From Jeotgalibacillus malaysiensis (lineage in GTDB: Bacteria > Bacillota > Bacilli > Bacillales > Jeotgalibacillaceae), in contig CP009417.1 in NCBI GenBank assembly GCA_000818095.1, positions 248,001 to 312,000 of the forward strand: a stretch of 64,000 nt of DNA, read 5' to 3'. The notes beneath the pieces are model-generated. The model did not search any database. It was not told the origin of the DNA and was given only the letters and a program-made list of their open reading frames with translations. Below, one piece after another: positions 1,375-63,316 of this stretch (its first letter is position 1; each line of letters opens with the position of its first letter). Both the position numbers and the translations under genes were made by a program.

Positions 1375-1404
1375 TTGACTATTGTCAAAATTTATTGTAT
1401 GCTT
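1375..1404 (+). promoter_or_regulatory. palindromic operator-promoter upstream of nadV
   Basis: TTGACTATTGTCAA (1375-1388) provides a -35 box TTGACT, followed by an 18-bp spacer and the -10 box TATGCT at 1399-1404. The near-perfect palindrome covers the -35 box and part of the spacer, so a protein bound there would block polymerase. The same palindrome occurs at other promoters in the window. The rest of the 325-bp gap (1147-1472) contains no credible gene; a TAGGATAAT at about 1280 may be another promoter element. Confidence 0.75.
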
Positions 1405-1472
1405 TACTTGTTAAGAATTACACAAACTATTTACCCTACCGGGGTGACTACTTTAAAAGGAGATGTTCCCAC

Positions 1473-2984
1473 ATGAACACACAGACAACTATCAACCAAT
1501 ATCCAGCTAACACACTTCCACTCTTGCTTTGCGACTACTACAAATTATCGCACCGTGCCCAGTATCCAAAAGGTACAGAAGTCGTCTACTCGACTTGGAC
1601 ACCACGTAAGAGCTTGATGCCTGGTATTAACGGAGCGGTCGCATTTGGCTTCCAATCGTTCATCCAAGAGACACTTGTTGAGTATTTCAACCGTGAGTTC
1701 TTCCAACGTGATATCAATGAGATTACTGCGGAATACACACGTATTGTCAAACACACACTCTTTGTTGAAAATGTAGATGTTTCTCACTTAGAAGCACTTC
1801 ACAAATTGGGTTACTTGCCGATTCGTATGAAGGCTGTACCTGAAGGAACGCTTGTACCACTCAACACACCGATGTTGACACTTGAAAACACGAAGCCTGA
1901 ATTCTTCTGGTTGACGAACTTCTTAGAGACGATGATGTCTTCTGAACTTTGGCAGTCATCGACTTCTGCGACGATTTCACGTGATTACAAACGTATCCTC
2001 ACAAAATTTGCGATGGAAACAAACGGCAATGCTGACCACGTTCCGTTCCAGGCTCATGACTTCTCATTCCGTGGAATGGTTGGTATCGATGGAGCAACAA
2101 AGTCAGGTGCCGCTCACTTAACATCATTCGTTGGAACAGACACGATTCCGGCTATCTCATTCCTCGAACGCCACTACGGTGCGAACGTTGAAAAGGAATT
2201 GGTCGGTACTTCTATCCCGGCTACTGAGCACTCAGTTATGTGTGCACATGGTCATGATGAGCGTGAATCATTCCGTAAACTCATTCAAGAAATCTACCCT
2301 GCCGGTTTCGTTTCAATCGTATCGGACACATGGGATTTCTGGAATGTAATCGAAAACGTTATTCCTTCGCTGAAAGAAGAAATTCTGGCTCGTGATGGAA
2401 AAGTCGTTATTCGTCCGGATTCTGGTAACCCGGTTAAAATCATCGTTGGCGATGAAAACGGTGCGACAGAACTCGAACGTAAAGGACTCGTGGAAGCTCT
2501 CTGGGATATCTTTGGTGGAGAGGTCAACGAATTAGGTTACAAAGTTCTTGACCCACACATTGGAGCTATCTATGGTGACTCCATTACTCGTGAACGTGCA
2601 GAACAAATTCTTCAAGGATTGAAAGATAAAGGCTTTGCCGCTTCAAACATTGTGTTCGGTGTAGGTTCCTTTTCTTTCCAATTCACAACACGAGATTCTC
2701 TAGGATTCGCAATGAAAGCCACATGGACACTCCGTTCAGACGGCGAATTCATGATTTTCAAAGCTCCTAAAACGGATGCTTCGAAGAATTCACAACGTGG
2801 ACGTGTTGTCGTATTTGAAGAAGATGGCGAAATCAAATTCCGTGATGGCTTAACGCTTGAAACGGAAGCTGAATTTGTACAAACAGTTACACCACTCTTC
2901 CAAACTATCTTTGAAGATGGTCAGGTTCAAAACTTGACTACACTCAATGAAGTTCGTGAACGTGTAACAGCTTCACTTGCTTAA
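1473..2984 (+). CDS. nadV: nicotinamide phosphoribosyltransferase homologue (NadV/NAMPT; possibly Namat)
   Basis: A 503-residue protein of the usual NAMPT length. NAMPT joins nicotinamide to the PRPP ribose to make NMN. Visible family motifs are DYYKLSH near residue 20 (the conserved N-terminal Tyr), HDFSFRG near 200, GTDT near 221 (the nicotinamide-contacting Asp), TEHS near 252 (the phosphorylated His) and RPDSGNP near 314 (phosphate binding). The start at 1473 has AAAAGGAGA 9 bases upstream; the open frame extends to 1395 without a ribosome site. The PRPP-synthetase homologue follows 81 bp downstream. In phages such pairs rebuild NAD+ destroyed by host defences; in one version (NARP1) the NAMPT homologue uses ADP-ribose pyrophosphate and makes NAD+ directly. 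I cannot tell from sequence alone which substrate this enzyme uses. Confidence 0.93.
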   Translation: MNTQTTINQYPANTLPLLLCDYYKLSHRAQYPKGTEVVYSTWTPRKSLMPGINGAVAFGFQSFIQETLVEYFNREFFQRDINEITAEYTRIVKHTLFVENVDVSHLEALHKLGYLPIRMKAVPEGTLVPLNTPMLTLENTKPEFFWLTNFLETMMSSELWQSSTSATISRDYKRILTKFAMETNGNADHVPFQAHDFSFRGMVGIDGATKSGAAHLTSFVGTDTIPAISFLERHYGANVEKELVGTSIPATEHSVMCAHGHDERESFRKLIQEIYPAGFVSIVSDTWDFWNVIENVIPSLKEEILARDGKVVIRPDSGNPVKIIVGDENGATELERKGLVEALWDIFGGEVNELGYKVLDPHIGAIYGDSITRERAEQILQGLKDKGFAASNIVFGVGSFSFQFTTRDSLGFAMKATWTLRSDGEFMIFKAPKTDASKNSQRGRVVVFEEDGEIKFRDGLTLETEAEFVQTVTPLFQTIFEDGQVQNLTTLNEVRERVTASLA

Positions 2985-2992
2985 TCAAGAAT

Positions 2993-3022
2993 AACCCTGC
3001 CGTAAAAAGCGGGGTTTTCTTT
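2993..3022 (+). terminator. terminator or attenuator between nadV and prs
   Basis: AACCCTGC pairs with GCGGGGTT around an eight-base loop and is followed by a T-rich run. It stands 8 bp after the nadV stop and about 40 bp before the prs start. No strong promoter is visible after it, so prs probably depends on read-through, and the hairpin would set the ratio of the two proteins. Confidence 0.75.
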
Positions 3023-3065
3023 CTACTATAGGACAAAACAAACATTCAAAAAGGAGAGTGACGAC

Positions 3066-3893
3066 ATGCTCGTACTCAATGGACAACAACTTAATCTGGT
3101 TACCTTCCCAAATGGAGAAACAAAACTTGATGGACATCAAATCAAGGAACTCGCAAAAGAAGAGAACGTCATTACCATGCGTTTTGAATCTGATGCCGAT
3201 TTCATCCACCTTCTTTTCTTGAAGAACCACCTCGATGATATTCTTCGTGTCAAATCGACGAAGCTCATTCTTCCGTATATCCCGTACTCACGTATGGACA
3301 GAACAGAAGGAACCGGTGTGTTCACTTTAAAGAGTGTGGCAAAGCTCATTAACAGCTTAGACTTTAAATCAGTCGAAGTATTTGAAGCCCATTCGGAAGT
3401 ATCGCTTGCTCTTATCGACCGTGTTCAAGCTCACATGATGACCTCAATCGGAATGATTGATAACGTCAAAGAAGCCATTGGATTTGATGAGTCAAAAGAC
3501 TTCATCTTCTACCCGGACGCAGGTGCAGAGAAGCGTTACCAGAGTTCTACCAAAGGAAAACACCTCTTCGGAATCAAACATCGTGATTTTGAAACAGGTC
3601 AAATCAAGTCCCTTGAAATTGCAGGACAGGTAACAGATAAAGATGTATTTGATAAGGTATTGATTGTCGATGACCTTTCTTCTTATGGCGGAACCTTCCA
3701 CTTCGGTGCACAGGCTCTTAAAGAGAAGTTTGGCTTCAAAGAAATCTACCTCGTAGTAGGTCATGCTGAAAACAACATTGTGAAAGGCAAGATTCCAACT
3801 GAGGGGCTTATTCAGAAAGTCTTCACAACAGACAGTATTTACACGGAAGATAACGACATCGTTCAGGTGTATCCGTATTTCTTCCCGGAGTAA
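3066..3893 (+). CDS. prs: ribose-phosphate pyrophosphokinase homologue (Prs; possibly ADPR-PP synthetase, Adps)
   Basis: A 275-residue PRPP-synthetase-family protein, shorter than the usual 310-320. Seen: FPNGE (residues 14-18, ATP site), IPYSRMDR (72-79, matching the family YxRQDR), DAGAEKRY (151-158) and VDDLSSYGGT (201-210) at the ribose-phosphate loop, where typical Prs has a DDxxxTAGT or TGGT form. Usual reaction: ATP plus ribose 5-phosphate gives PRPP and AMP, supplying the NAMPT homologue next door. The altered loop and short length fit either a divergent phage Prs or an enzyme that pyrophosphorylates ADP-ribose, as in the NARP1 pathway; this is an inference. The ATG at 3066 has AAAGGAGA 8 bases upstream. 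Confidence 0.88.
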   Translation: MLVLNGQQLNLVTFPNGETKLDGHQIKELAKEENVITMRFESDADFIHLLFLKNHLDDILRVKSTKLILPYIPYSRMDRTEGTGVFTLKSVAKLINSLDFKSVEVFEAHSEVSLALIDRVQAHMMTSIGMIDNVKEAIGFDESKDFIFYPDAGAEKRYQSSTKGKHLFGIKHRDFETGQIKSLEIAGQVTDKDVFDKVLIVDDLSSYGGTFHFGAQALKEKFGFKEIYLVVGHAENNIVKGKIPTEGLIQKVFTTDSIYTEDNDIVQVYPYFFPE

Positions 3894-3897
3894 CAAA

Positions 3898-4333: not shown

Positions 4334-4347
4334 TTTTAACTCTCCTC

Positions 4348-6840: not shown

Positions 6841-7326
6841 TTACGAACCCTTGGAATGATATTCGACCAACAGCTCTCCAAGAATTTTCGTATTTTCATC
6901 TACATTTACGCCTTGAAGCAATTCATTGTACAAGGCAAAGACTTGTTTCTGTTGTTCCCCTACTTTCTGTACAAGGGTTTCATCCAGCAACTCGTCTCGG
7001 TTTAGGTGCCATCGAAAATCATCAAGCGTCATGGTGTAACTATAGTCGTTCCAATTGAAATCAGCATACGCACCGCAAACGGTACATCCGTTATTCCATG
7101 ACAATTCATCTGGATGAGAAAGGAAAGATGGATTATTTGCGTTGCAAACCTTGCACACTTTCTCATTATCTTGGACATACAGATACTGATTCATGAAACG
7201 TTCACGAGTCGCCTTCGCTTCCTTTTCTTCCGGTGTTTCTTCTTTAGAAGAGTATTCAGCAGACAAGTCGTCCCATAGCGACCTGTCTAAAAAATCCAAA
7301 TCAATCAGTTCTAATTCGTTTTTCAT
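6841..7326 (-). CDS. zinc-ribbon paralogue 5
   Basis: A 161-residue member of the family with an acidic N-terminus, the ribbon CKVCNAN then about 18 residues then CTVCGAYADF, the aromatic strand (TMTLDDFRWHL) and a helical tail. Start chosen at 7326 because GGAGGAG lies about 10 bases upstream; the frame could begin at 7371, but that would overlap the -10 box. It is first in the run and is read from the operator-promoter at 7363-7391. Confidence 0.7.
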   Translation of the reverse strand: MKNELELIDLDFLDRSLWDDLSAEYSSKEETPEEKEAKATRERFMNQYLYVQDNEKVCKVCNANNPSFLSHPDELSWNNGCTVCGAYADFNWNDYSYTMTLDDFRWHLNRDELLDETLVQKVGEQQKQVFALYNELLQGVNVDENTKILGELLVEYHSKGS

Positions 7327-7362: not shown

Positions 7363-7391
7363 ATCATACATTTTTTATTGACTATTGTCAA
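7363..7391 (-). promoter_or_regulatory. palindromic operator-promoter of the zinc-ribbon genes
   Basis: On the minus strand: TTGACA, 17-bp spacer, TATGAT, close to the sigma-A consensus. The -35 box is half of the palindrome TTGACAATAGTCAA (7378-7391). The site lies inside the last codons of the upstream hydrolase gene, so the two genes overlap regulation and coding. Confidence 0.85.
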
Positions 7392-8270: not shown

Positions 8271-8810
8271 CTACTTAATTAAACTGTTTACATTCACACT
8301 GAATCCTTTGAACAAAGAAGATTGTATCTCCTCTTCACTTGACCAAACCCTTTCGGTACCTGCAATAAAATCATATTGCTCGATGAATGGATGAGCTGGG
8401 TCAATTATCCAAAGCTCTTTCACTCCATGCTTTTGATAGAGTGGTCTCTTTTGATTCCTATCCTTAATGGCGGTCGAAGGTGAGACAATTTCAACAATAA
8501 AGTCAGGTGCACCCTTCACACCTTTATCCATAAGCTTGTTCTCATCACATACGACCAAAATATCTGGCTGAACAACCGTATCCGGATTAGCGTACTCGTC
8601 GGTCTCCCTAAGAAAGACATCTGTAGGAGCACTGTATACTCTACAACCATCCTCCTTGAAGAAGTTTCTTAACTGATAGAAAAGCTCTCCGCTGATTTCC
8701 TGATGGATGCGAGAAGGTGCAGGTGTCTTAAATGGGACACCATCAATAAGCTCCCAACGACCTTCCCAAGTTTTGATGTCAGAGTAGATATATAGTTTAT
8801 CTCTTTTCAT
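8271..8810 (-). CDS. Uma2-family endonuclease-like protein
   Basis: A 179-residue protein with the Uma2 (DUF820) pattern: WELIDGVP at the N-terminus, HQEISGELF, then VVQPDILVV, PDFIVEIVSPST, a Lys in the following helix and ELWIIDP. These residues form the PD-(D/E)XK-type site of the family, whose cellular role is unclear. The ATG at 8810 is preferred over 8816, which sits too close to the AGGAG. Uma2 genes are abundant in cyanobacteria and also scattered in Bacillota and mobile elements. Confidence 0.88.
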   Translation of the reverse strand: MKRDKLYIYSDIKTWEGRWELIDGVPFKTPAPSRIHQEISGELFYQLRNFFKEDGCRVYSAPTDVFLRETDEYANPDTVVQPDILVVCDENKLMDKGVKGAPDFIVEIVSPSTAIKDRNQKRPLYQKHGVKELWIIDPAHPFIEQYDFIAGTERVWSSEEEIQSSLFKGFSVNVNSLIK

Positions 8811-8984
8811 GAACATTCTCCTTTACATCAAATCTTATCATCAAAACTACTCCCTTCTTTTTGTGTATGTACTCGAACCACGAAATCGTGATAAAAGATG
8901 TTGAACCTTCTATAATAGAAAGAAAACGGATGAACCCGTATCGGTTCTCCGCTAATAGTAACCATTCAAAACTTTATATAGCCC

Positions 8985-9036
8985 ATAAAAAAGAAAAGAG
9001 CCATCGGAATTGGCGTTCCAATGACTCTAGCTTCAA
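8985..9036 (-). terminator. minus-strand terminator-like hairpin
   Basis: On the minus strand an interrupted stem (AGAG, CAT, TGG against CCA, ATG, CTCT, loop AACG) is followed by TTTTCTTTTTT. No minus-strand gene precedes it within 1.4 kb, so it may end an unrecognised transcript or insulate the Uma2 gene. Confidence 0.5.
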
Positions 9037-9079
9037 CAAAATCGCTCTTTGTGAAGCCGTTTATGTAGATATAATATCA

Positions 9080-9965
9080 TCCTTTGGGGGATATTACTAC
9101 CTTTTCCTGTCTTAGCATCTGCTGAATCAAGAAAGTTTTTCTACATCTTCTGGTACCCTCATTTAAGTAGACTTGTTCAAGTTAGAGACATGACGTTTCT
9201 GATTGGAAGAAGTCTATTTTTATGGTTTTCCCACCCGATATGAGAGGTGGAAGTGAGGTGTAGCTACCGTAGTAAGAGGGAAAGGCTCGGTGATGAAGGT
9301 GATTTCTACCATCTTTGTCAACGTCAGAAGGTAAAGGGAGCAAGCCTTCCGCCTACCGACAGGGTACGACTGTCCATGGCAAAGAGCTCCGGGGGGTGAA
9401 ACACGACCTCTCTGTACGACTGTAGACAGTCCTGCGATGAACTGCAGAGAATTTTCTAGTAAGCGGCACAGAGGTAACGGATTCATGAGAACGTCAGGGA
9501 AACCTGGCAAAGATTATGTAACGACAATGCGAAAGCTGACGATTCTGGATATGCACACGAATCGGAACCGGTAAAGGGTATAAAACCCTGGATAGGTAAC
9601 AGTTACATGTGGTTTTGACGAGCCACCGTCGTAGAAGACAGCATACGTATACGAACGAGCGACCGACCGAAAAGTTGATTGCAAGCTGAACAGACGAAGA
9701 CAACCTTGCATAGGGATTCGTCTGCCTCAACCACCGTGCCGCCTCGCTCCCTCCCAAAAAGCTGTGTTAAAAACATAAAATCAACACACACAAGCCATTT
9801 GGCTCGAACCATTGACTCAACGAAACGATACATAAATAAAATTAAAAAACAGAAAACGGCAGATTCAATCACTCCATAGCGAGCGAAGATTCTTACCACT
9901 ACGTCGTATCATCAAACGTCAGTTTGTGGTGCGACAGGGCAACGAAGTGCCCCGGTGCTCTTTTA
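9080..9965 (+). ncRNA. candidate giant structured RNA (GOLLD/ROOL-like size)
   Basis: About 0.9 kb with no believable protein frame, higher GC than its surroundings and many local helices. Seen: CCACC/GGTGG (9231-9250); GACTGTC (9368) with GACAGTC (9425); a six-pair stem around a GAAA tetraloop (9493-9508); AGGGT/ACCCT (9575-9589); GACG/CGTC near 9617; CAGACGAA (9691) with TTCGTCTG (9717), which could interlock with GCAAG/CTTGC as a pseudoknot; TGTGTT/AACACA (9763-9788); a long imperfect stem at 9903-9935; GGGCA/TGCCC (9937-9952) followed by TTTT. The purine-rich strand with the GNRA loop and two TAGTAAG segments is the plus strand. A TATAAT at 9070-9075 could start it. Size and style resemble GOLLD and ROOL RNAs of phages and mobile elements; class and exact ends are inference. 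Helices may continue to about 10110. Confidence 0.6.
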
Positions 9966-10122
9966 TTAACGAACCAATAGGATGTGCAGATACAACGAGA
10001 GGCGGTTGATTCGAATCGTGACAATAGGCAACATTTGGAGCGATGCTTTATCAGCTATATCCAGCAAACAGGCGGATGTCACAGGTTGTTCAAAAAAGAT
10101 TGACTGATTCGTAATTTATTTA

Positions 10123-10152
10123 TTGACTATAGTCAATAATATAGTGTAATAT
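10123..10152 (+). promoter_or_regulatory. palindromic operator-promoter of the small RNA
   Basis: The perfect 14-bp palindrome TTGACTATAGTCAA (10123-10136) supplies the -35 box TTGACT; an 18-bp spacer leads to the -10 box TAATAT at 10147-10152. No protein gene follows on this strand before the terminator at 10396-10425. Confidence 0.75.
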
Positions 10153-10157
10153 AGGAT

Positions 10158-10428
10158 TACAGAGAGAAACAAGCACCTTGTTTCACCACTACGCTTTCGA
10201 ACATTTGATTCGAAACAAATAAGCAACACCCCCATATCGCAACATCTTATACCTCCAGGACACCTCTTGTCTGACATAGGTGTTGCGATTTCAATGTTTT
10301 TCATTGATTTTAATTCTTTTACCTACCTCTTATAGCCTCATTCCTTCATTATACCCCGACTGTCCCACTAGCGTTCAGTCAAAACCCTCCTTTCGAGACC
10401 TGGCTCCCACAGCTAGGTCTTTTTCAAT
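10158..10428 (+). ncRNA. candidate regulated small RNA, about 270 nt
   Basis: The interval between a clear promoter and a clear terminator has no credible coding frame but contains strong hairpins: GAAACAAG/CTTGTTTC (10166-10184, three-base loop), TTTCGAA/TTCGAAA (10195-10215) and ATCGCAACA (10236) with TGTTGCGAT (10281). ACACCT (10260) can pair with AGGTGT (10278), which overlaps and excludes the last stem, so two alternative folds are possible. The RNA shares the palindromic operator with nadV and other genes. Its targets are unknown; boundaries are inferred from promoter and terminator. Confidence 0.55.
10396..10425 (+). terminator. strong terminator of the small RNA
   Basis: A ten-base stem AGACCTGGCT/AGCTAGGTCT with a CCCAC loop is followed by TTTTT on the plus strand. 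Confidence 0.85.
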
Positions 10429-10451
10429 GCAACAAAAAAAGACCGGTATCA

Positions 10452-10580
10452 TTACACAGTCTTTTGTCCAGCTTTGAGCAGAGCATGTACATCTTTCAAA
10501 ACATCGTTCGTCGCCGTTTGAACCATCTCTCGAATTTCTGCACGCAATGCATCTAACTCTTGTTTAATATTCTTTTCCAA
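10452..10580 (-). CDS. small helical protein, TTG start (42 aa)
   Basis: A 42-residue frame reading (TTG)EKNIKQELDALRAEIREM and onward to GQKTV. The TTG at 10580 has a TGGAGG 8 bases upstream; the in-frame ATG at 10616 has none, so I prefer the TTG. The sequence is a single amphipathic, coiled-coil-like helix. Its stop overlaps a terminator stem (10429-10460) that ends in TTTTTTT on the minus strand. A TGCATAGGATAAG motif lies about 90 bp upstream. Function unknown. Confidence 0.55.
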   Translation of the reverse strand: MEKNIKQELDALRAEIREMVQTATNDVLKDVHALLKAGQKTV

Positions 10581-10669
10581 AATCGTTTCCTCCAGTAATA
10601 AGAGAGTCTGGGACATAGGTTGTGGCAATCCACTTAACGCCCCGTTGACTTCCTGTTTTTTAAGTATGT

Positions 10670-10682
10670 CTTATCCTATGCA
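10670..10682 (-). promoter_or_regulatory. TGCATAGGATAAG motif
   Basis: Minus-strand TGCATAGGATAAG upstream of the 42-residue gene, preceded by GTTTCAC as at the other copies. TAGGAT is the likely -10 box. Confidence 0.45.
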
Positions 10683-10705
10683 GTGAAACGAAAAGTATAA
10701 ACGAA

Positions 10706-10730
10706 AAAGACCTGAGTATTCAGGTCTTCA
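10706..10730 (-). terminator. terminator of the 10720-11034 gene
   Basis: On the minus strand AAGACCTGA pairs with TCAGGTCTT and is followed by TTTTT; the first half overlaps the stop codon. Confidence 0.75.
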
Positions 10731-11034
10731 GTTGCTTCTTCTTTTCTTGTTTGGTGAAAATGAAATAGAAGATGCCCAATACCGTTGCATGAGCAACATA
10801 GATGGAACCGGCAAGCATCAGAATTCCAGCCAACATACCAAATACAACGATATCGAATACCGCATGGGTACTGAAAAACGTATACTCAAACCATTCCTTG
10901 TTTTCGAATAAGAACACGAAAGCGGGAGCTAGTGGCAATAAGCCTATTCCTAGTAAACGCCCTCTCTTTTCTTTTACCTTCCATAGAATAATCGAATACG
11001 CTGTCAAACTAACCAACAACCAAATCAACCACAT
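10720..11034 (-). CDS. hypothetical small membrane protein
   Basis: A 104-residue protein with three or four hydrophobic helices (about 2-19, 27-43, 56-92), a short basic loop (KVKEKRGR) after the first and a Lys-rich C-terminal tail (KQEKKKQLKT). A GGGCG sequence precedes the ATG. No family is recognised. It is followed immediately by a terminator and preceded by another at 11066-11090, so it is probably its own unit. Confidence 0.6.
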   Translation of the reverse strand: MWLIWLLVSLTAYSIILWKVKEKRGRLLGIGLLPLAPAFVFLFENKEWFEYTFFSTHAVFDIVVFGMLAGILMLAGSIYVAHATVLGIFYFIFTKQEKKKQLKT

Positions 11035-11819: not shown

Positions 11820-12812
11820 TTATTTTTCGATTGGGAGCTTATGCATATTTCGTGCCGCTACAATCGTACTCATAGCATCATCCTTTTTGTATTCTGCTTG
11901 ATAGCGAGCTTTCTCTTCCTCTGTCTTTGCGAGGATTTCTTTTACGGTATCCATTGCATACATACGAAGAGATTCTTCCACCGTTGGGTCGTTCGCAAGT
12001 TTTAATAGTTCCTCGATAGCAGGAGAGACCTGTTCGTTCGAAACTGATACCGGCATTGTTTGAACTTCTTTCTTCTCAAACTCTTTATTCAAGAAATCGA
12101 TACCAGGTTGCTCAAGAACCCCAATGCTATACTTCCAGACTTTGTCCACATCGAACAATTCATTTTTGAGTTCCTCGTAGCGTTCCTCGTGCTTTTTCAC
12201 CATCTCACGATGTTCTTCTTTTTTCTCATTACTTAACGTTAGGATATTTTGATACCGTGTGGCTTCCAGTGTCTCTCTCAATTTCACGAATTGAATCGCT
12301 AAATCGGAGAAAGCATCGAGCTCCTTTAGATAGTCTGAGCGAGTCAAGGGCATCTTCATATACTTATCAAAGTCTTCCTCCGTTAGTTCCCAGTTCATTA
12401 CGCCCAGTGAAGGGTATTCGCTGACAACGACTAATGCTTTTTCATCAATGAGCATGTACGTGCGGATATGCTTCGAGAAGAGATGTTTGAGGATAAAGGG
12501 GATTTGATAGAGAAGATAAAAGAAAATGAGTAGCAACAACGGCTTCCATGTCATTGCCATAAACGAGCCAAGCACAATCATTACCATTGGGGGTATAATA
12601 ATACTAGCGATGACACCATTTGCTTGGTCAACTTCCACAATCTTTTTGATGTAGTTTTTCTTTTGCTCCTTTACCCGCTTTCGGTACGTCGATACCGTGC
12701 GGTCAACACCGTATCCTTTTAAACGATATTTAATCACGACTGGAGTCAACCAGTTTAATCCTGCTGTAATGAACGCCGAAGCGATTAAGACAATCCAAAA
12801 TGTGTGCATCAT
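11820..12812 (-). CDS. membrane-anchored coiled-coil protein
   Basis: A 330-residue protein with an N-terminal transmembrane helix, a basic loop, two further hydrophobic segments (about 70-110), then a long soluble, highly charged region with probable coiled coil (about 175-225). The C-terminal segment EELLKLANDPTVEESLRMYA suggests a short helical repeat. The plan (N-terminal membrane helices, large helical cytosolic domain, same relative C-terminal position of a 'leucine-rich helix, EES, helix') is shared with the protein at 17153-18013. No family recognised. AAAGGAG precedes the ATG; the promoter at 12850-12878 carries the perfect palindrome. Confidence 0.65.
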   Translation of the reverse strand: MMHTFWIVLIASAFITAGLNWLTPVVIKYRLKGYGVDRTVSTYRKRVKEQKKNYIKKIVEVDQANGVIASIIIPPMVMIVLGSFMAMTWKPLLLLIFFYLLYQIPFILKHLFSKHIRTYMLIDEKALVVVSEYPSLGVMNWELTEEDFDKYMKMPLTRSDYLKELDAFSDLAIQFVKLRETLEATRYQNILTLSNEKKEEHREMVKKHEERYEELKNELFDVDKVWKYSIGVLEQPGIDFLNKEFEKKEVQTMPVSVSNEQVSPAIEELLKLANDPTVEESLRMYAMDTVKEILAKTEEEKARYQAEYKKDDAMSTIVAARNMHKLPIEK

Positions 12813-12849: not shown

Positions 12850-12878
12850 ATTATCCTCAAAATATTGACTATAGTCAA
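12850..12878 (-). promoter_or_regulatory. palindromic operator-promoter
   Basis: On the minus strand: TTGACT, 17-bp spacer, GATAAT. The -35 box lies in the perfect palindrome TTGACTATAGTCAA (12865-12878). It reads into the membrane coiled-coil gene starting at 12812. Confidence 0.8.
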
Positions 12879-16083: not shown

Positions 16084-16320
16084 TCAATAACTTCTAGACT
16101 CAAAGTCAACCATTCCCAGCACGCCGTCTGTCCCGATATAACCCACCGCATAGCAATTAATATCGAGACCTGTGCTGTCGAATCCACCAACATAAATGCA
16201 CATGCATTGAACTCCGAACTTTTCTCGAACAGCTTCACAAATTGCTTCTACTTCTTCTGTATCAAAGCACTCTTCCAGCTCATCTCGTTTTTCTGCAATA
16301 AATAATTCGACTTCGTTCAT
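16084..16320 (-). CDS. hypothetical small protein (78 aa)
   Basis: A 78-residue protein with an acidic helix, then alternating Cys and strands (VQCMCIYVGGF, NCYAVGYIG). It may be a small alpha/beta domain. GGTGGAG precedes the ATG. It is divergent from the SLOG gene and 50 bp from the operator at 16371-16384; whether that operator also acts on this side is unknown. Confidence 0.55.
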   Translation of the reverse strand: MNEVELFIAEKRDELEECFDTEEVEAICEAVREKFGVQCMCIYVGGFDSTGLDINCYAVGYIGTDGVLGMVDFESRSY

Positions 16321-16370: not shown

Positions 16371-16399
16371 TTGACTATTGTCAATAATTTGCGTATAAT
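16371..16399 (+). promoter_or_regulatory. palindromic operator-promoter of the SLOG gene
   Basis: TTGACT, 17-bp spacer, TATAAT (16394-16399): a near-consensus sigma-A promoter. The palindrome TTGACTATTGTCAA (16371-16384) overlaps the -35 box. Confidence 0.88.
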
Positions 16400-16456: not shown

Positions 16457-17035
16457 ATGCAGACAATCACAGTGACAGGACATCGTCCGAACCGGTTAAA
16501 TAACGCTTATGACCTGTTACATCCAGTCAATATCAAGATGGGGCGTGTCATGCGAGAATTTATTTTAAATCAGGCAGGATACAACAAGGAGACCAACGCC
16601 TTTACCGGAGAAACGCCGGTGCGTCTCGTCAGTGGCATGGCACTAGGAGCCGATACCGTATGGGCAATGGTGGCTTTAAAACTCAAGCGGGAGTTCCCGG
16701 GCGTGTTCGAGCTTGAATGTGCCATTCCTTGTGCAAATCATTCCTCACGTTGGAAATCGGAAGACCAGAAACGCTATCAAATGATTCTGGACAATGCGGA
16801 TGTCGTGACACATGTTTCCAAACAGCCATATAAAGGATGGTTGATGCAGAAGCGGAATGAGTACATGGTGGACATCTCCCCAACCGTCTTTGCGATTTGG
16901 AACGGTGTGGAGAACGGCGGAACATACAACTGTGTACAATACGCACAGAAAAAAGAACGTACTATCTACCGATTTTTCCCATTGGAAGATGAGACATGGG
17001 AGTTGTACCAGGAAGGACGTATCACATCTTCATAA
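16457..17035 (+). CDS. SLOG-family protein (DUF1273/YpsA-like)
   Basis: A 192-residue Rossmann-like protein. Seen: VTGHRPNRL (6-14), VSGMALGADTVWAM (about 57-70), AIPCANHSSRW (about 92-102), VSKQPYKG, QKRNEYMVD and VFAIWNGVENGGT (about 146-158). This is the DUF1273/SLOG pattern, a superfamily proposed or shown in some members (for example the SLOG domain of ThsA) to bind nucleotides including NAD-derived signals. This member has no fused effector. AAGGAGG lies upstream of the ATG. It stands alone between its own operator-promoter and terminator. Confidence 0.85.
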   Translation: MQTITVTGHRPNRLNNAYDLLHPVNIKMGRVMREFILNQAGYNKETNAFTGETPVRLVSGMALGADTVWAMVALKLKREFPGVFELECAIPCANHSSRWKSEDQKRYQMILDNADVVTHVSKQPYKGWLMQKRNEYMVDISPTVFAIWNGVENGGTYNCVQYAQKKERTIYRFFPLEDETWELYQEGRITSS

Positions 17036-18710: not shown

Positions 18711-19484
18711 TTAGAATCGGTAGCTGACTTTATAGTCCGTTGCCTTTTTATATGGTGTTTTTACTCTCTGTTGTAAATCAAAGGTTGTGTCGATAACGAG
18801 CCACTTTCCGTTCACATAGACCTCGTTCCATGCGTGATACCCATAATTTTTAGGATATCCCATGACAAGTCGTGTCGGAACACCCATTTCTCTTAACAAA
18901 GAACCTGACAAGGATGCCATGTCGTAGCATGTTCCCATCCGATTTTTCATGAATCGGCTATAATCTGGCACATACCACGCACCTTGATTATTTTCACGAG
19001 CATAATCATAGGAGAAGTTCTTGGTGACGTACTCATGGACTTTCCGCACTTTCTGGTCAGAGTTCCATTTTTTCCACCCGATGAACTTTGTATCCAAAGT
19101 ATATTTCACGTGCGGTGCTTTGCTCCCGGGCGTTAACACGGTTCGTTGTAACGCTTGTGTTTTCTCATTCGCTTTCATGGTCACTTGTTTGTGTTCGATG
19201 ATTTGGTAGCTTCCCTTTTTATTTACTGCTAGATAGATGTCTACCTTTCCATTTCCAAATGGATTCGGAAAGGTATCTTTCTTGTTTAATTTGTAATTAT
19301 AGGATGCATCGCCTTTTTTAATTTGGACGACGGCAAACTCCCCCTTTTGAAGCGGAGGCATATTCGCCTCGAATGTCCCCTTGCTTGAATGACCACTAAG
19401 ATATGACGAAGTCGCTTCTGTTGAGAAGGGAAACATCATGAGTAGAAGAATCGTTAAAGCCGATAGTAGCCATTTTTTCTTCAT
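18711..19484 (-). CDS. secreted transglutaminase-like protein
   Basis: A 257-residue protein with a signal peptide (about 1-24), a beta-rich N-terminal domain (about 30-125) and a transglutaminase-like domain. The catalytic triad is visible: Cys186 in GTCYD, His217 in YHAWNEV and Asp232 in IDTTFD. Such domains act as cysteine proteases or peptide cross-linkers outside the cell. Its ATG overlaps the stop of the M50-like gene by four bases, so the two proteins are made together. A terminator (GGATAC/GTATCC, 18686-18708) follows. Confidence 0.85.
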   Translation of the reverse strand: MKKKWLLSALTILLLMMFPFSTEATSSYLSGHSSKGTFEANMPPLQKGEFAVVQIKKGDASYNYKLNKKDTFPNPFGNGKVDIYLAVNKKGSYQIIEHKQVTMKANEKTQALQRTVLTPGSKAPHVKYTLDTKFIGWKKWNSDQKVRKVHEYVTKNFSYDYARENNQGAWYVPDYSRFMKNRMGTCYDMASLSGSLLREMGVPTRLVMGYPKNYGYHAWNEVYVNGKWLVIDTTFDLQQRVKTPYKKATDYKVSYRF

Positions 19485-20314
19485 TGAGGTGTCCCCTTCA
19501 CGACGTTCCGAATTTTATACAGGATGAAAGCAATGCCTGTTGCAACACCGGAAAAAAGAAGGGCAATCAGCGATACAGAATAGATAAAGAGGTTGTAATC
19601 GTTGATGAACAGGTCTGAAACGTTGACATCATACATATGGGGAACATAAAACATGTTAATCAGTGTCCCAATGATGAAGATAAAGAATAGACCTGAACGG
19701 GCTCCTTTAATGTCTGGCGGGCTGAGTGTCATGTGAGAGGCGACAGCAATCGAGAAGCCTAAGAATAGATATAGAGAAAGACTGCTCAGATTGTCACCCG
19801 TGAAAAGACTTGGAACAACGGAGAATGTTGCCAATAAAGATTCCGTTGCCGTGTCTGATTTCGTGATTTTCTCCCACCACAATTCAAATGATTCCGGAAG
19901 CAATAACCGGTATGCCACGGTAATGCTGAAAATCCCCATCATGATAGGTGCGACACCGATGAAGAACATCCCGATACGATGAAACAGGTTCTTCGGGTCA
20001 TATGAATGATTAACATAGCCCATCGTGCCATGAGGGTCTCCAAACTGTACGAATTTGATTTTATCGACATGATGACCGAATACAAGGCACATGATGGCAT
20101 GTCCCAGTTCGTGGATTGGCACGCCAATCAAAGCGGTCGTGTAGATACCTTTTACTCCAACTGATGCTCGAATCCATCGATTTCGTTTTTCTTCCATTTT
20201 CGCAATCGCAAATCCGATAATTAAAAAGATGCTTAAATAAGAAAACATCTGAGTAAGCGTCAGTAGTGAGCTGACAAAAAGAGTGTCTAAGAACTCTTGT
20301 CCATTTGATAACAT
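19481..20314 (-). CDS. M50-like membrane metalloprotease
   Basis: A 277-residue membrane protein with about six hydrophobic helices. PIHELGHAIMCLVFGHHV (67-84) contains the zinc-binding HExxH (His68, Glu69, His72) in a membrane segment, the mark of site-2-type intramembrane proteases. I do not see a clear LDG motif for the third ligand; Asp residues in the second half are candidates, so it may be a divergent or inactive member. It is translationally coupled to the secreted transglutaminase. GGAGGGGG precedes the ATG. Confidence 0.7.
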   Translation of the reverse strand: MLSNGQEFLDTLFVSSLLTLTQMFSYLSIFLIIGFAIAKMEEKRNRWIRASVGVKGIYTTALIGVPIHELGHAIMCLVFGHHVDKIKFVQFGDPHGTMGYVNHSYDPKNLFHRIGMFFIGVAPIMMGIFSITVAYRLLLPESFELWWEKITKSDTATESLLATFSVVPSLFTGDNLSSLSLYLFLGFSIAVASHMTLSPPDIKGARSGLFFIFIIGTLINMFYVPHMYDVNVSDLFINDYNLFIYSVSLIALLFSGVATGIAFILYKIRNVVKGTPQ

Positions 20315-20439: not shown

Positions 20440-20793
20440 ATGGACATCAAGCAATATTTGCTCGTAAACAAAGAAGTCGAACTCTCTCCAGGGAAATTAG
20501 CCGTACAAACTGCTCACACAGCGGCACGTTTTGAACGTGCGGTTGCAAAAGGAATCTATCCACCTCTCTTCTCCACCGATTCCTATGAAGCATGGGTATC
20601 CGGTGAAGAAAAAAAGATTGCGGTTCGAGCATCTCAAAAGCAGATGGAAAAACTCGAAGCAGAAGGCTGGATTTGTGTACGTGACAACGGGCACACCGAA
20701 GTGGAAGCCGGTACATTGACCGTCGTGATTTCTCCCCCTCTCTCCCCGGAAGAGCTCCCGGGTTGGCTGAAACGTCTCCAACTCTACAAATAA
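20440..20793 (+). CDS. pth2: peptidyl-tRNA hydrolase, type II (Pth2 family)
   Basis: A 117-residue protein matching the Pth2 length and pattern: KQYLLVNKEVELSPGKLAVQ with AVQTAHTA (about 17-30), then AVRASQKQMEKLEAEG and TVVISPPL. Pth2 releases tRNA from peptidyl-tRNA. It is usual in archaea and eukaryotes and sporadic in bacteria and phages, which usually carry the unrelated Pth1. The ATG at 20440 has AAAAAGGA 9 bases upstream; the frame could start at 20395 but that lies inside the promoter. Controlled by the palindromic operator. Confidence 0.85.
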   Translation: MDIKQYLLVNKEVELSPGKLAVQTAHTAARFERAVAKGIYPPLFSTDSYEAWVSGEEKKIAVRASQKQMEKLEAEGWICVRDNGHTEVEAGTLTVVISPPLSPEELPGWLKRLQLYK

Positions 20794-24535: not shown

Positions 24536-24928
24536 TTAGAGTGTCCCATTATATTTAGTTAGAACCTCACGTGCCAATTTGGAGCTGTACTCTGTACCTC
24601 TCTTTTCAATCTCTTGCAACGTATGTTCATACGCTGATAGTTTTGCAGAAGCATCGATGATTTCTTCCACTAATCCGTCCATATCATCAATGGGAACAAC
24701 AACGACCTGACCATTTTTCGTCATATACGTCTCAGCTTTTTCCATGTGCAACTCCGTCCACTCATACAATGTCATCGGTTCGCTTTCCTCTGAATGAAGT
24801 TGCCCCATGACCTTATCATATAAATCTCCTAACTCTTCATCGCTTGCACGGGGAATTTCCAGTGGATTTCGATTCCCGAAAAGTGGAATCACCTGCCCCA
24901 TTTGCTTTTTATTCTTTTCATCACTCAT
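24536..24928 (-). CDS. hypothetical protein (130 aa)
   Basis: A 130-residue acidic, mostly helical protein; the N-terminus contains GQVIPLFGNRNP, a short motif seen in various small phage and plasmid proteins. No function known. It converges on the SANT gene with only 5 bp between stops. Its promoter carries the palindrome (24981-24994). Confidence 0.6.
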   Translation of the reverse strand: MSDEKNKKQMGQVIPLFGNRNPLEIPRASDEELGDLYDKVMGQLHSEESEPMTLYEWTELHMEKAETYMTKNGQVVVVPIDDMDGLVEEIIDASAKLSAYEHTLQEIEKRGTEYSSKLAREVLTKYNGTL

Positions 24929-24964: not shown

Positions 24965-24994
24965 ATTGTATCAATTAAAATTGACTATTTTCAA
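24965..24994 (-). promoter_or_regulatory. palindromic operator-promoter
   Basis: On the minus strand TTGAAA, 18-bp spacer, TACAAT. The site reads TTGACTATTTTCAA on the plus strand (24981-24994), one mismatch from the symmetric form. It reads into the gene starting at 24928. Confidence 0.7.
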
Positions 24995-27176: not shown

Positions 27177-27203
27177 CGTTTTCACCTTCTTCCTTTTTCA
27201 ATT

Positions 27204-38684: not shown

Positions 38685-38698
38685 TTGACTATAGTCAT
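38685..38698 (-). promoter_or_regulatory. palindrome upstream of the 1900-aa surface protein
   Basis: TTGACTATAGTCAT. Here it does not give a clean -35/-10 pair on the minus strand; the better -10 is TAGGAT near 38655-38660 with TTATGA 17 bp upstream. The palindrome then lies just upstream of the -35 box rather than over it, so its effect may differ. Confidence 0.5.
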
Positions 38699-38894: not shown

Positions 38895-40166
38895 TTAATT
38901 CTTTTTGAATTCAACAATATATTTAATTTTGACCTGGTTGTCTTTATAGACAATGTACTCATCATGGTAAAGCGAACGACCTTTCACACCACGAACCGAG
39001 TTATATGGGCTTGGTGCTGAGCGAAGGTGGGACTGAGCCGAATCATAGTCTTTAATTTTCCCAGTGGCGACTTCGCAGATAAACATGTAATAGCTATCAT
39101 TTGAAGCGTTACCGAATCCCCAACAATAGTTCGCTGATTTCGTGACCTCACTTGCGAAATAGATTCCAGAACCAAACATCGAGCCGGTGTGAACCGCAGA
39201 CGATGGTTTGATTTTCAAACCGCTTTGCATGATGGAAAGAATGTTCTCGTTTCGTGAACCGTGAAACAGTTCCATTGTTTCGACATTGTAAGGGTTGAAC
39301 TCATTGTGTCCGACCATATCTTCCACTTCGAAGATTTCGGAAACGCCAACCTTGAAACGATGGTGTGAACTATGGCTGTTGTTTACCTTCTCCACTAGTC
39401 GTTTGTATTCTTTTGTACGACTGCTGAGCGGCTTTAATTTGATATTGAGCGATTCATACTTCTCTTGAAGCGTCTTTTCAAGCGTGTCCTGTGCTTGTAC
39501 GACCGAACTCATAACACCTAGCAAGTCTTTCTTGTCGTTTAGCTTTACATAGTCGTCAATCAAGAATCGCTTCACATCAACTCGACTTCCGAATGGCACC
39601 GGAATAACTGAGTAGAACTCATCGGACAATCGCTGAACTTGATGAATGCTAGGATTTCCCTTGTCTAACAATTCCTCAATCTGTTTGAGAACAGCAAGTC
39701 CTTTCGCAACCTGAGTGCCTGAAATTTTTCCTAAAGGCGTTTGAATCGAACTGACAAGGTAAGATGTTGCGGATTGATAAAGCTTCCCAATCAAACGATG
39801 AACCTTGTTTTTAATTTGAGAAACCTCTTTCGTGCGAGCGTCTTTCACTTCAACCTTTACCTGTCCCACCTGGTCTTGTACATCAACAACTTTGTAGCCC
39901 TTGCTTTCCTTTGAACGTTTGATTTTTTCGTACTCACGTTCAGCTCCATAAAGACTTGAGAAAAAGCGGTGCTTTTTCTGTGGGTTTGAACCAAGACGAC
40001 CATATTCACAGTAGACGGCAAAGGGTTCTTTCCCGATACCTTCCTGAATTTCTAAAATGTAAAATTTATTGGAGTTTGCTCCTAGTGAAGCATAGTTCAG
40101 AATGTCTTTCCGGTGTACTTTCTGCACCTGAAAATTACTGTATGACGCATTGACTGCAGTTGCCAT
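38895..40166 (-). CDS. WGR-PARP: poly(ADP-ribose) polymerase-like protein
   Basis: A 423-residue protein with a WGR domain (about 33-95; the signature Trp is replaced, reading EYGRLGSN), a helical regulatory domain (about 120-240) and a PARP catalytic domain (about 295-423). The H-Y-E triad is intact: His302 in LFHGSRNENIL, Tyr336 in GSGIYFAS and Glu403 in HDEYIVY; KSANYC (343-348) also matches eukaryotic PARP1-3. It should transfer ADP-ribose from NAD+ to protein or nucleic acid, probably activated by DNA ends through WGR and the helical domain. PARPs with this architecture are rare in bacteria and their elements. AGGGAGAGGG precedes the ATG. Promoter at 40201-40229. Confidence 0.93.
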   Translation of the reverse strand: MATAVNASYSNFQVQKVHRKDILNYASLGANSNKFYILEIQEGIGKEPFAVYCEYGRLGSNPQKKHRFFSSLYGAEREYEKIKRSKESKGYKVVDVQDQVGQVKVEVKDARTKEVSQIKNKVHRLIGKLYQSATSYLVSSIQTPLGKISGTQVAKGLAVLKQIEELLDKGNPSIHQVQRLSDEFYSVIPVPFGSRVDVKRFLIDDYVKLNDKKDLLGVMSSVVQAQDTLEKTLQEKYESLNIKLKPLSSRTKEYKRLVEKVNNSHSSHHRFKVGVSEIFEVEDMVGHNEFNPYNVETMELFHGSRNENILSIMQSGLKIKPSSAVHTGSMFGSGIYFASEVTKSANYCWGFGNASNDSYYMFICEVATGKIKDYDSAQSHLRSAPSPYNSVRGVKGRSLYHDEYIVYKDNQVKIKYIVEFKKN

Positions 40167-40200: not shown

Positions 40201-40229
40201 ATTATACGTTATTTTTATACAATAGTCAA
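40201..40229 (-). promoter_or_regulatory. promoter of the PARP gene with partial palindrome
   Basis: On the minus strand TTGACT, 17-bp spacer, TATAAT: near consensus. The palindrome is only partial (TTGACTATTGTAT), with the second arm decayed, so binding would be weaker. The rest of the gap to 40457 holds no clear gene. Confidence 0.75.
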
Positions 40230-41500: not shown

Positions 41501-42718
41501 TTACATGTTGATAATTGGTAAATAACCATCATAGTCAAAAATGACTTCAATCGTTGAACGGTTTACCACGACATATCCCTTTTTACCACCAATTGTGATA
41601 TTGATAAGTTTTTCCTTCGAGAATGTCATATTGTCTTTAACCACTTTCACAAGCTGAGACGTTTCAGGCGTGCCTTTCCCAAAGAATCCGGATAGACCAA
41701 GTTCGAGAGCTTGCATCCCATTCTTTTGAGCTGAAGGATATTGATTGTATCGGCTCATGACAAACGTCATAGCTGATAGCTTCTTAGAGTCATATTGACC
41801 AATCACAAAGAGATAATTTTCCTTTGCAGAGTTAGAAGCTCCTACAAGGTAAGAATTTACATATTGCTCTCCATATTCTTTCTTTGGTTCAAAAATCTTT
41901 CGTGAGTCATTGGCAAATGTCGGAGTCGTCAACAACTTCAAGGAGTCAGCTTTACTGATAAATCCTTTTTGAACGACTGGGGCAGACTTAACCTCTTTCA
42001 AATGTGAACCTAGCACCCAACCCGTTTTTCCGCCATACGTGACCTTGTAAAAGCCAGATAGTTTAGAGGAAGAAGATACGACCTTACCTTTTGGAATCGT
42101 GACAAGCTTCTTCTTCGAGGATGTCGTAGAAGAATAAAGCGTTGTTGTCGTCGTCGTTGTAAATTTCTTCGTAGCAAACTTCTCTTCTTTTGGTAAAGAA
42201 ACAGTTGTCTTTTTTAAATATTTTGAACTGACATAACCCGTCTTATTGGCATAGGACACTTTAGACCACGACGTCCCATAGCTGAGCATTTGAACCGCTT
42301 TACCTTTTGGAATCGTAAGGATGGTCTTATGCTTCGTAGAAGCTCCGGTACGCAAATTCAAAGAGGCTGTTGTCGTGTAAACGACTTGACTTGATGCAGG
42401 CGGTTTTGGTGCCACAATTGTCGGCGACTTTGTTACATGGCTCGGACTAACATACCCTGTCTTTGAACCGTATTTAACTTTGTACCAACTTCCGCTTTTC
42501 CCAACATACGTCATTTCTTTTCCTTTTTTGATGACGGTCAACGATTTTGCTGACCATGAAGCCGTAGCACGAAGATTGATATCTGTTTTTGCTTGATACT
42601 TCACAACCTGAGCGGCTTCAACCGTTGTTAATTCCTGAACCGGATTCTGAACAACGGTACCTGCCATCAACATCACACAAAGAGAGAGACTAATTTTCTT
42701 TAAAAACTGTTTATTCAT
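41501..42718 (-). CDS. secreted protein with three SH3b domains
   Basis: A 405-residue protein with a signal peptide (about 1-35), then three bacterial SH3 domains of about 60 residues (starting near KTDINLRATAS, TASLNLRTGAS and TTTTTLYSSTT), each ending GYVS or GWVL plus a short basic strand, then a C-terminal domain of about 150 residues I do not recognise. SH3b domains usually bind cell-wall peptidoglycan, so the protein is probably held in the wall without sortase. The ATG at 42718 has AAGGAG 8 bases upstream. Promoter: TTGACT (minus strand of 42796-42801), 18 bp, TATAAT (42772-42777), without the palindrome. Confidence 0.8.
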   Translation of the reverse strand: MNKQFLKKISLSLCVMLMAGTVVQNPVQELTTVEAAQVVKYQAKTDINLRATASWSAKSLTVIKKGKEMTYVGKSGSWYKVKYGSKTGYVSPSHVTKSPTIVAPKPPASSQVVYTTTASLNLRTGASTKHKTILTIPKGKAVQMLSYGTSWSKVSYANKTGYVSSKYLKKTTVSLPKEEKFATKKFTTTTTTTLYSSTTSSKKKLVTIPKGKVVSSSSKLSGFYKVTYGGKTGWVLGSHLKEVKSAPVVQKGFISKADSLKLLTTPTFANDSRKIFEPKKEYGEQYVNSYLVGASNSAKENYLFVIGQYDSKKLSAMTFVMSRYNQYPSAQKNGMQALELGLSGFFGKGTPETSQLVKVVKDNMTFSKEKLINITIGGKKGYVVVNRSTIEVIFDYDGYLPIINM

Positions 42719-42847
42719 GTGATTCACTCCTTTTTTGTTTATAATCAATATTTATTTATTCTATTGTCTTTATTATACTATTCCCACTACCTGTTAGTCA
42801 ATTATAATTTACAATAACAAAAATAAAAAGAGGTATTTTACCTCTTT

Positions 42848-62686: not shown

Positions 62687-62783
62687 AAAAGAAACGCCTC
62701 CTTAAAAGTAAATGGTCTAACAAGACTCCTTTGTTTCGTGCTTACCTTATTTTAGATTTCTAAGCAAGAACTTATAACCAGAC

Positions 62784-62807
62784 AAAAAGCAGGGGGTTCC
62801 CTGCTCT
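62784..62807 (-). terminator. terminator of the 62810-63235 gene
   Basis: AGCAGGG pairs with CCCTGCT, T-run on the minus strand. Confidence 0.75.
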
Positions 62808-62809
62808 TA

Positions 62810-63235
62810 TCATTGAACCAACATTTGATTGTAGCCGTTCATAAATAGATTGGTTGCTTCTGCCATCAAGAACGCTTCATCACGCAATAGACAAGCGAAA
62901 TGATAAGGCGTCGCATTACCTCGAATACCAAAGGATTCAAACTCATCAAGTCCGTTAAATAGGTTTTGTGCAAGCAAGAACACAATGGCATCACGTTCAT
63001 CTAACTCACCGATGACAAAACGAGAAACCGCAACATCAACCTTTGGATAGCATCCTTTCGGTTCAAACAGCTCTTCTGGACTATCATAATGAAGTGCCGA
63101 CACCAGATACATCACAGCAATCTCCCGGTTAAAAATCTTTGTTCGGGTCAACATCTGAATCTTCATCAACTCATCAAAACGTGCTTTGTGTTGTTCACTG
63201 ATAAATGTGGTCGTTTCAGCAATTACTGTATTCAT
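62810..63235 (-). CDS. hypothetical protein (141 aa)
   Basis: A 141-residue, mostly helical protein. The N-terminus TTFISEQHKARFDELM, then a helix with AVMYLVSAL, resembles small DUF families of phage and mobile elements in Bacillota (DUF6075 or DUF2538 type); I cannot choose between them. TAGGAGG precedes the ATG. Its upstream region has two copies of the palindrome. Confidence 0.6.
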   Translation of the reverse strand: MNTVIAETTTFISEQHKARFDELMKIQMLTRTKIFNREIAVMYLVSALHYDSPEELFEPKGCYPKVDVAVSRFVIGELDERDAIVFLLAQNLFNGLDEFESFGIRGNATPYHFACLLRDEAFLMAEATNLFMNGYNQMLVQ

Positions 63236-63280
63236 GCTTCAAACCTCCTAGTTTTTTGTAGTTATAGTTTATCATACTTA

Positions 63281-63316
63281 TTGACTCTTGTCATTATTCA
63301 TTTTACCTATTGTCAA
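63281..63316 (-). promoter_or_regulatory. two tandem palindrome copies
   Basis: TTGACTCTTGTCAT (63281-63294) and TTACCTATTGTCAA (63303-63316), 22 bp centre to centre, about two helical turns, which would suit cooperative binding. A TATGAT at 63271-63276 is a likely -10 box, but the spacing to either -35-like arm is not standard. Confidence 0.55.

Follow-up and report, generated by a model that had tools for sequence, protein, structure and literature searches.

In the IncP plasmids RK2/RP4, the plasmid-borne repressors KorA and KorB hold a regulon of operators dispersed over replication and maintenance promoters; seven KorA and 12 KorB operators are given for RP4, and the repression is transiently lifted when the plasmid enters a new cell (PMC7314908). 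The repressor Rco of the Bacillus subtilis plasmid pLS20 is an XRE-type helix-turn-helix (HTH) protein that controls itself at a divergent promoter; it is a tetramer with a p53-like domain, and DNA looping has been reported (PMC9986798, PMC4207663). In mycobacteriophages, one repressor has many sites over one mobile genome, and these stoperators are described as asymmetric sites that terminate elongation (PMC9283540). We analyzed a near-palindromic element, TTGACTATWGTCAA, in a 64,000-nucleotide window of Jeotgalibacillus malaysiensis (GenBank CP009417.1; C2:248001-312000), over the whole 603,070-bp replicon C2 to which the window belongs, and on the chromosome C1 (3,516,439 bp). In our reading, TTGACTATWGTCAA serves as operator for a repressor of two-fold symmetry that the plasmid itself encodes; this repressor would control much of C2 and is most likely the protein g436. 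We give this reading a probability of roughly 0.65.

Many operator copies at promoters of unrelated functions, confined to the plasmid, characterize the Kor type of control, and both properties are found on C2, which is about ten times larger than RP4. Compared to IncP plasmids, C2 has some ten times more sites and its candidate reader is XRE/Rco-like, while repression on C2 is what we infer from sequence. In its proposed way of working, the system also resembles phage immunity. Rco acts through direct repeats at two operators of a single locus and has an N-terminal HTH (PMC9986798, PMC4207663), whereas C2 has single inverted repeats scattered across the replicon, and its candidate protein carries a long extension at the N-terminus. 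Stoperators would be expected away from promoters; the C2 sites are near-palindromic and stand at promoters, 85 of 149 having a -10 hexamer at 16-18 bp. The motif string was not found in the literature searched, and no replicon-wide plasmid operator this large was among the matches listed, which is not proof of absence.

The 718 genes of C2 were called with a home-made coding-potential script, so that gene starts are approximate; 17.8% of the replicon is non-coding. Allowing up to two mismatches, we found 149 sites on C2 (12 exact, 89 with one and 48 with two mismatches), of which 141 are fully intergenic, two partly so and six intragenic. By class, the fully intergenic sites are 12/12, 85/89 and 44/48, respectively; among the matches with three mismatches, 27 of 67 are intragenic. 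The 3.5-Mb chromosome has 13 of the 162 sites found genome-wide, and the reversed pattern, which served as control, was found 29 times in the whole genome; the chromosomal number is at background level. Among 11 other genomes of the genus, 10 are without an exact TTGACAATAGTCAA, the complement of the commonest form of the site, and one has a single copy. A symmetric weight matrix with 4-base flanks, derived from these same C2 sites, detected 174 sites on C2 at 10 bits, 171 of them intergenic, and none in reversed C2; at 11 bits, there are 169 intergenic sites, whose median distance from one to the next is 2.8 kb, and the widest gap measures 23 kb. A site is located within 300 bp of 172 of the 500 well-scoring C2 genes that have an upstream gap of at least 40 nt, and of 85 of the 138 divergent gene heads. 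The sites reach a large share of C2, by no means every gene start. An earlier note, made from the window only, had named equal abundance of the motif in coding regions or host promoters as the outcome that would speak against its idea of a shared operator; the motif is rare in coding DNA and on the host chromosome.

The commonest form of the site, TTGACTATTGTCAA or its complement, is not perfectly symmetric and consists of a TTGACA -35 box plus a second arm; the centre of the operator is therefore usually asymmetric. We compiled an unbiased set of 139 promoters, defined by TTGAC and a -10 box at 16-18 bp upstream of C2 genes, with the second arm ignored. Exact GTCAA was found at the mirror place in 86 of them, and the next commonest second arms include GTCTA (8), GGCAA (3) and GTCAT (3), each one base away. 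By comparison, the second arm is present in one of 25 promoters of the chromosomal sample, and in none of 21 when a prophage piece that carries an operator is removed. The suggestion that the symmetry is selected beyond the -35 box is upheld by these numbers, and a dimeric repressor is the best reading of it. In 106 oriented C2 sites, conservation is 0.92-0.99 in the second arm and 0.94-1.0 in the first; however, these sites were chosen by their likeness to the palindrome, and the unbiased count is therefore the fair test. It should be noted that oriented sets exclude sites that are intragenic, of unclear direction or more than 200 bp from a gene (106 of 149 were kept for C2, and 42 of 60 and 36 of 44 for two Paenibacillus plasmids introduced below). 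The 85 C2 sites with a -10 hexamer (up to one mismatch, on either side) compare to 9 of 298 places shifted by 101 bp; seven sites have a -10 on both sides, i.e., are two-way promoters.

Searches (tblastn) with the VWA protein and VirB4 yielded plasmids of Aneurinibacillus (722 kb), Brevibacillus halotolerans (414 kb, W02), Paenibacillus thiaminolyticus (360 kb, W03), P. polymyxa SC2 (pSC2, 510 kb, W04) and Geobacillus (127 kb); a 739-kb contig of Bacillus sp. M6-12 was added by a scan of genome contigs. The numbers of sites with up to two mismatches, compared to the reversed control, are 82 and 4 in Aneurinibacillus, 55 and 5 in Brevibacillus, 60 and 4 in each of the two Paenibacillus plasmids, and 155 and 28 in the whole M6-12 genome, where contigs C1 and C24 hold the places listed. 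These five relatives are operator-rich; the small Geobacillus relative is not (2 sites versus 1). Four distant megaplasmids have 3 versus 1 (Priestia), 5 versus 3 (Cytobacillus), and 0 versus 0 (Planococcus and Peribacillus). The pSC2 plasmid and the other megaplasmids of the family have VirB4 (65-67% identity), the Tad ATPase operon and an orthologue of g436 in common with C2, and the larger ones also share its operator. The published account of pSC2 describes 98% of it as strain-specific, with mostly hypothetical genes, and no mention of an operator was found in the consulted parts of that description (PMC4209062). The VWA protein had only its own match in 397 genomes of the order (E 1e-20), and VirB4 in 398 genomes of the class (E 1e-150) matched itself and one other, with coordinates equal to those of the Aneurinibacillus plasmid.

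Sites are located outside genes in 55 of 60 cases in W03 (non-coding share 23.8%) and in 43 of 44 cases in the 410 of 510 kb analyzed in W04 (25.7%). Relative to the oriented sites, a -10 is found at +22..24 in 26% of cases in W03 (n=42) and 19% in W04 (n=36), compared to 4% and 3% in controls of the same width, and just upstream of the site in 43% and 39%, compared to 14-29% in 17-bp control windows. The sites of these two plasmids are less closely bound to the -35 box, and such shifting placement relative to the promoter is indicative of an operator rather than a promoter element. For the Geobacillus plasmid, a variant operator (a longer TTTGTTGAC...) was considered: 11 of the 13 three-mismatch sites there are intergenic, but the reversed control of a free motif search was too high (59 versus 23 at 10 bits), and the variant is kept as a lead only. 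As a separate observation, the Aneurinibacillus plasmid has a second, partial VirB4 approximately 20 kb upstream of the full one (L060:156-1121 and L060:20115-22040), and a second copy of the sigma factor, also approximately 20 kb apart.

Three C2 proteins match HTH_3 above the cut-off. One of them, g436 (C2:344163-345125, minus strand; PF01381, E 8.4e-16), is an XRE protein. Its gene lies ahead of g435-g432, the conserved Tad ATPase genes, and opposite that of g437, a conserved small protein. All five operator-rich relatives have an orthologue in a similar place, with a rearranged upstream side in Aneurinibacillus; those of Brevibacillus and M6-12, which were outside the query alignment, were recovered at E 1.8e-74 and 6e-60. 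Matches to the g436 profile in the four distant megaplasmids have E 3.1e-9 or worse, or are absent. The divergent region of g436 contains TTGCCTATAGTCAA (one mismatch) in Brevibacillus and both Paenibacillus plasmids, a site with two mismatches in C2 and M6-12, and one with three in Geobacillus. The first of 26 PDB matches of the g436-family profile is 8bny (E 2.9e-16), the structure of Rco of pLS20 (PMC9986798), and the alignment runs over the C-terminus, where Rco has its p53-like tetramerization domain. The TrbA model matches g436 at 19.5 bits, far below its cut-off of 96, and no KorA or KorB model is among the 12 NCBIfam matches of g436 at E 0.01, their presence in that library being unchecked. 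We take g436 as the best candidate for the regulator.

Two of the 13 chromosomal sites belong to a region that reads as a prophage (C1:2553439-2555808; L039:8439-8500, 8529-10808). These operator-like sites, TTAACTATTGTCAA and TTGACTCTAGTCAA, are 48 bp apart and lie 5' of an HTH repressor-like gene, adjoined by an IrrE/ImmA-like protein and, by reading, an integrase-like gene; cross-control between plasmid and prophage is possible. The 206-residue chromosomal protein was first suspected to be LexA, and an SOS connection was considered; this was dropped, as the protein is a weak HTH_3 protein next to the IrrE/ImmA-like protein and the apparent integrase, i.e., part of the prophage. Among viral contigs, an 18-base form of the operator was found in 11, none with more than two sites. 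No g436-like protein was detected in viruses (tblastn at 1e-3), where one 31-residue match to g592 was obtained.

We propose that a plasmid-encoded repressor with two-fold symmetry would bind TTGACTATWGTCAA. In somewhat more than half of the sites, one arm doubles as the -35 box of a promoter that is near consensus and of sigma-A type; a dimer bound there would hide this box and so shut the promoter. At a few sites, both arms serve divergent promoters, and in two related plasmids the operator lies over the -35 box or just downstream of the -10 box. The g436 protein, encoded at its own divergent, operator-bearing promoter in front of the Tad-type ATPase operon, would also repress itself and, by its likeness to Rco, may be a tetramer that bridges operators. 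The purpose may be that of a dimmer for the whole replicon, which would limit the cost of a giant plasmid and be released together after transfer or on a signal. The sequences show how many sites there are, where they lie and how symmetric they are, as well as their occurrence in the plasmid family and the linkage of g436; binding, repression, the tetramer, the signal and the purpose are proposed on that basis.

Several observations weigh against this proposal. Since only 172 of the 500 C2 genes have a site, many genes may escape control or sit inside operons. No operator was found in the 300 bp 5' of the Aneurinibacillus orthologue of g436 (best match with seven mismatches), and the Geobacillus plasmid has an orthologue yet only two sites. 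The downstream-of-(-10) placement in W03 and W04 is only approximately 1.5- to 3-fold over background. Shared presence of sites at orthologous genes is not significant (10 with both among 95 pairs of C2 and W03, Fisher p=0.15; 8 among 93 pairs of C2 and W04, p=0.36) in a weak test that used 60% coverage and one C2 gene per target gene and ignored operons. The profile that matched 8bny included the chromosomal prophage repressor; the match of that repressor to the full family profile is by construction, as it is a member of the alignment, and a profile of seven orthologues without it did not find it at E<1. A structural model of the Aneurinibacillus orthologue, for which no alignment was used, reaches confidence only in the HTH, with a pLDDT of about 50-60 for the C-terminal strand and helices; the tetramer is therefore unsupported by structure. 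Finally, g436 was picked by linkage, and other DNA-binding proteins remain candidates: conservation in the family extends to the XRE protein g446 and the sigma factor g422, C2 also has the XRE protein g592, and there are further XRE-like matches on W02, W03 and M6-12.

The alternative closest to our proposal accepts a real, replicon-wide operator and assigns it to another reader, either a plasmid protein (g446, g592 or an unrecognised one) or a host protein, with g436 limited to the pilus operon. We consider this unlikely. The g446 gene (C2:357130-357738) is conserved at 27-31% in the related plasmids W02-W05, but has no upstream site with two or fewer mismatches on C2; g592 (C2:509691-510104) has the same type of HTH, with a site between it and its divergent neighbour, but its only matches in the relatives' stretches are the g436 orthologues. 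A host reader would predict chromosomal sites, whereas the chromosome has only background numbers. It is improbable that the motif is instead read by an activator, or belongs to the promoters of a sigma factor encoded on the plasmid. Consistent with that idea, g422, a sigma-70 family factor (41-49% identical, nearest to the SigK/SigE models), follows the plasmid family (six related plasmids or contigs have it, and a search at E 1e-10 did not find it in the four distant ones), and most C2 sites with a recognisable -10 stand at the -35. However, only the -35 and -10 boxes at fixed spacing would be conserved for a sigma factor, and the second arm, which such a factor would not read, is present in 86 of the 139 promoters; the -10, TATAAT at 17 bp, is of the ordinary kind, and the site is often elsewhere relative to the -10 in W03 and W04. 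An activator centred between -35 and -10 boxes at normal spacing would be unusual.

That the sites mark a regulon limited to NAD+/ADP-ribose and defence genes, along the lines of the earlier note, is very improbable in view of the counts. It is true that nadV, SLOG and, weakly, PARP genes carry sites in the window, and that in the prs-nadV pairs of P. thiaminolyticus and P. polymyxa a site lies 5' of prs; the approximately 150-170 sites, however, span the 603-kb replicon and precede many kinds of genes (gyrase A, Pol III alpha, primase, SecA, RecD2, a sigma factor, a PrgI-like conjugation gene and genes of unknown function), and so narrow a scope of the regulon is thereby refuted. The sites at nadV and 5' of prs in these pairs would be equally expected from a replicon-wide operator. 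A regulon conserved gene by gene was also considered and is not detectable, as the Fisher tests against the two Paenibacillus plasmids are not significant; unshared gene content and the spread over functions argue for control of the replicon, against a pathway regulon. Chance or a simple repeat, i.e., AT-rich promoter DNA that favours TTGAC..GTCAA, is hardly credible: three-mismatch matches are indeed often intragenic, but none of 100 dinucleotide shuffles of the window (mean 4.28, sd 1.86, maximum 10) reached its 21 matches with up to three mismatches, the matrix has no match in reversed C2 versus 174, and the distant megaplasmids hold 0-5 sites; the shuffled and reversed controls already refute it.

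Within the window, the 13 copies of the motif listed in the earlier note are all in place, and a -10-like hexamer (up to two mismatches to TATAAT) follows one arm at 16-18 bp in 11 of them, much as claimed; with up to one mismatch, the number is seven. The sites are listed below in window coordinates, followed by one weak additional match.

1375-1388: operator TTGACTATTGTCAA, one mismatch, 5' of the nadV-like gene 1473-2984 (+); -10 TATGCT at 17 bp
7378-7391: operator TTGACTATTGTCAA, one mismatch, 52 bp 5' of gene 6841-7326 (-); -10 TATGAT at 17 bp; within the last codons of the upstream open reading frame as called
10123-10136: perfect operator lying in 1.6 kb devoid of called genes, none being closer than 700 bp in either direction; weak -10 TAATAT at 18 bp (+)
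12865-12878: perfect operator, 53 bp 5' of gene 11820-12812 (-), which has no Pfam match; -10 GATAAT at 17 bp
16371-16384: two-way operator, one mismatch, between the divergent genes 16084-16320 (-) and 16457-17035 (+, SLOG/YpsA, PF06908); each arm is a -35 box, with TATAAT at 17 bp on + and GATAAT at 17 bp on -; one of the seven two-way promoters of C2
20388-20401: operator, two mismatches, between the divergent genes 19481-20314 (-) and 20440-20793 (+, PTH2, PF01981); -10 TACGAT at 18 bp (+)
24981-24994: operator, two mismatches, 53 bp 5' of gene 24536-24928 (-); -10 TACAAT at 18 bp
27219-27232: operator, two mismatches, 34 bp 5' of the ATP-grasp (R2K) gene 26385-27185 (-, PF18299); -10 TATATT at 17 bp
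32857-32870: perfect operator, 91 bp 5' of gene 30160-32766 (-); -10 TAGAAT at 17 bp
38685-38698: operator, one mismatch, 61 bp 5' of gene 32922-38624 (-) for a 1900-residue glycine-rich/Ig-like protein; no -10 at 16-18 bp
40216-40229: half-degenerate operator, three mismatches, 50 bp 5' of the PARP gene 38895-40166 (-); -35 arm intact, TATAAT at 17 bp, second arm lost
63281-63294: weak operator, three mismatches, 46 bp 5' of gene 62810-63235 (-); -10 TAAACT at 17 bp
63303-63316: second weak operator, three mismatches, 68 bp 5' of the same gene; no -10 at 16-18 bp
42735-42748: weak site, three mismatches, 17 bp 5' of the SH3-repeat protein gene 41501-42718 (-); no -10 toward the gene; membership among the operators doubtful

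An extra copy with two mismatches at 2934, absent from the earlier list, is intragenic and looks like chance. The TTGACT promoter at 42772-42801, cited in that list as one without the palindrome, is present in the sequence. As for the genes that were said to be controlled, nadV, SLOG, pth2 and ATP-grasp do carry sites, whereas PARP has only the half-degenerate one. The PARP protein (WGR, regulatory and catalytic domains) has relatives with 61% identity at W03:24504-25811 and W04:59803-61110, and no operator lies within 300 bp 5' of either (best match with four mismatches), which further argues against the narrow regulon. The nadV gene and a ribose-phosphate pyrophosphokinase gene, so annotated in P. 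thiaminolyticus, form a conserved pair in three megaplasmids:

window 1473-3893: nadV-prs pair
W03:122259-124684: prs-nadV pair
W04:216294-218738: prs-nadV pair

Two other features of the window were observed. Positions 40216-63281 are the longest operator-free stretch of C2 (23 kb at 11 bits) and correspond to a block of surface proteins past the PARP gene, with several very large BNR, Ig-like, SH3 or LPXTG proteins. The stretch 9200-9780 (+), outside called genes and with the perfect operator at 10123 nearby, has a better fold than each of its 100 shuffles (z -2.65) and is possibly a large structured RNA; 62 bases of it are repeated at C2:99704-99765 (87%), with no match in eight other records searched, and Rfam gave no match at the gathering score anywhere in the window, this stretch included.

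The gene content of C2 indicates a megaplasmid of the conjugation type, with transfer predicted from its genes. Comparison to annotated relatives identified a VirB4-like ATPase, a PrgI-like protein, Tad/Flp-type pilus proteins and a topoisomerase, and family scans identified a wall hydrolase with SLT and M23 domains, SecA, valyl-tRNA synthetase, Pol III alpha, primases, gyrase A, ribonucleotide reductase and LPXTG surface proteins. The plasmid location of a full-length valyl-tRNA synthetase and of SecA (L009:4086-6716 and L029:4711-7077) is an observation in its own right. A phage or phage-plasmid nature of C2 was considered and dropped, based on PHROGs and Pfam scans of large proteins and on synteny, as the gene order of C2 is syntenic with plasmids. 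The PHROGs scan covered 27 of the 718 proteins; no capsid or portal was found among these, the tape-measure, minor-head and endolysin models matched only the SLT and M23 protein via those domains, and the terminase model phrog_2666 matched two transfer-type ATPases, g518 and g542. No relatives of VirB4 or SecA were found in viral contigs, and megablast of two 24-kb parts of the window, one against phages and one against plasmids, gave no match; matches of SecA and valyl-tRNA synthetase in a phage collection were mostly to unannotated records and were not used.

The shared operator offers a concrete and testable answer to the open question of how plasmids of very large size are tolerated: one operator stands at a large share of promoters and is kept in a family that spans at least four named genera, while the genes under these promoters turn over. 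We tentatively consider, as a possibility that goes well beyond the operator itself, that such megaplasmids (0.36-0.74 Mb) may live like prophages under a single bridging repressor of the immunity type. A signal or transfer would then free nearly all genes, including those of the polymerase, gyrase and transfer machinery, and captured genes would be tamed by gaining the operator instead of retaining the control they came with. If our reading of TTGACTATWGTCAA is correct, one knock-out would show whether the whole megaplasmid wakes, and the operator would provide a sequence tag for finding plasmids of this family, as well as a repressor-operator pair for Gram-positive hosts. These results suggest that one plasmid-encoded repressor could turn down much of such a plasmid at once.

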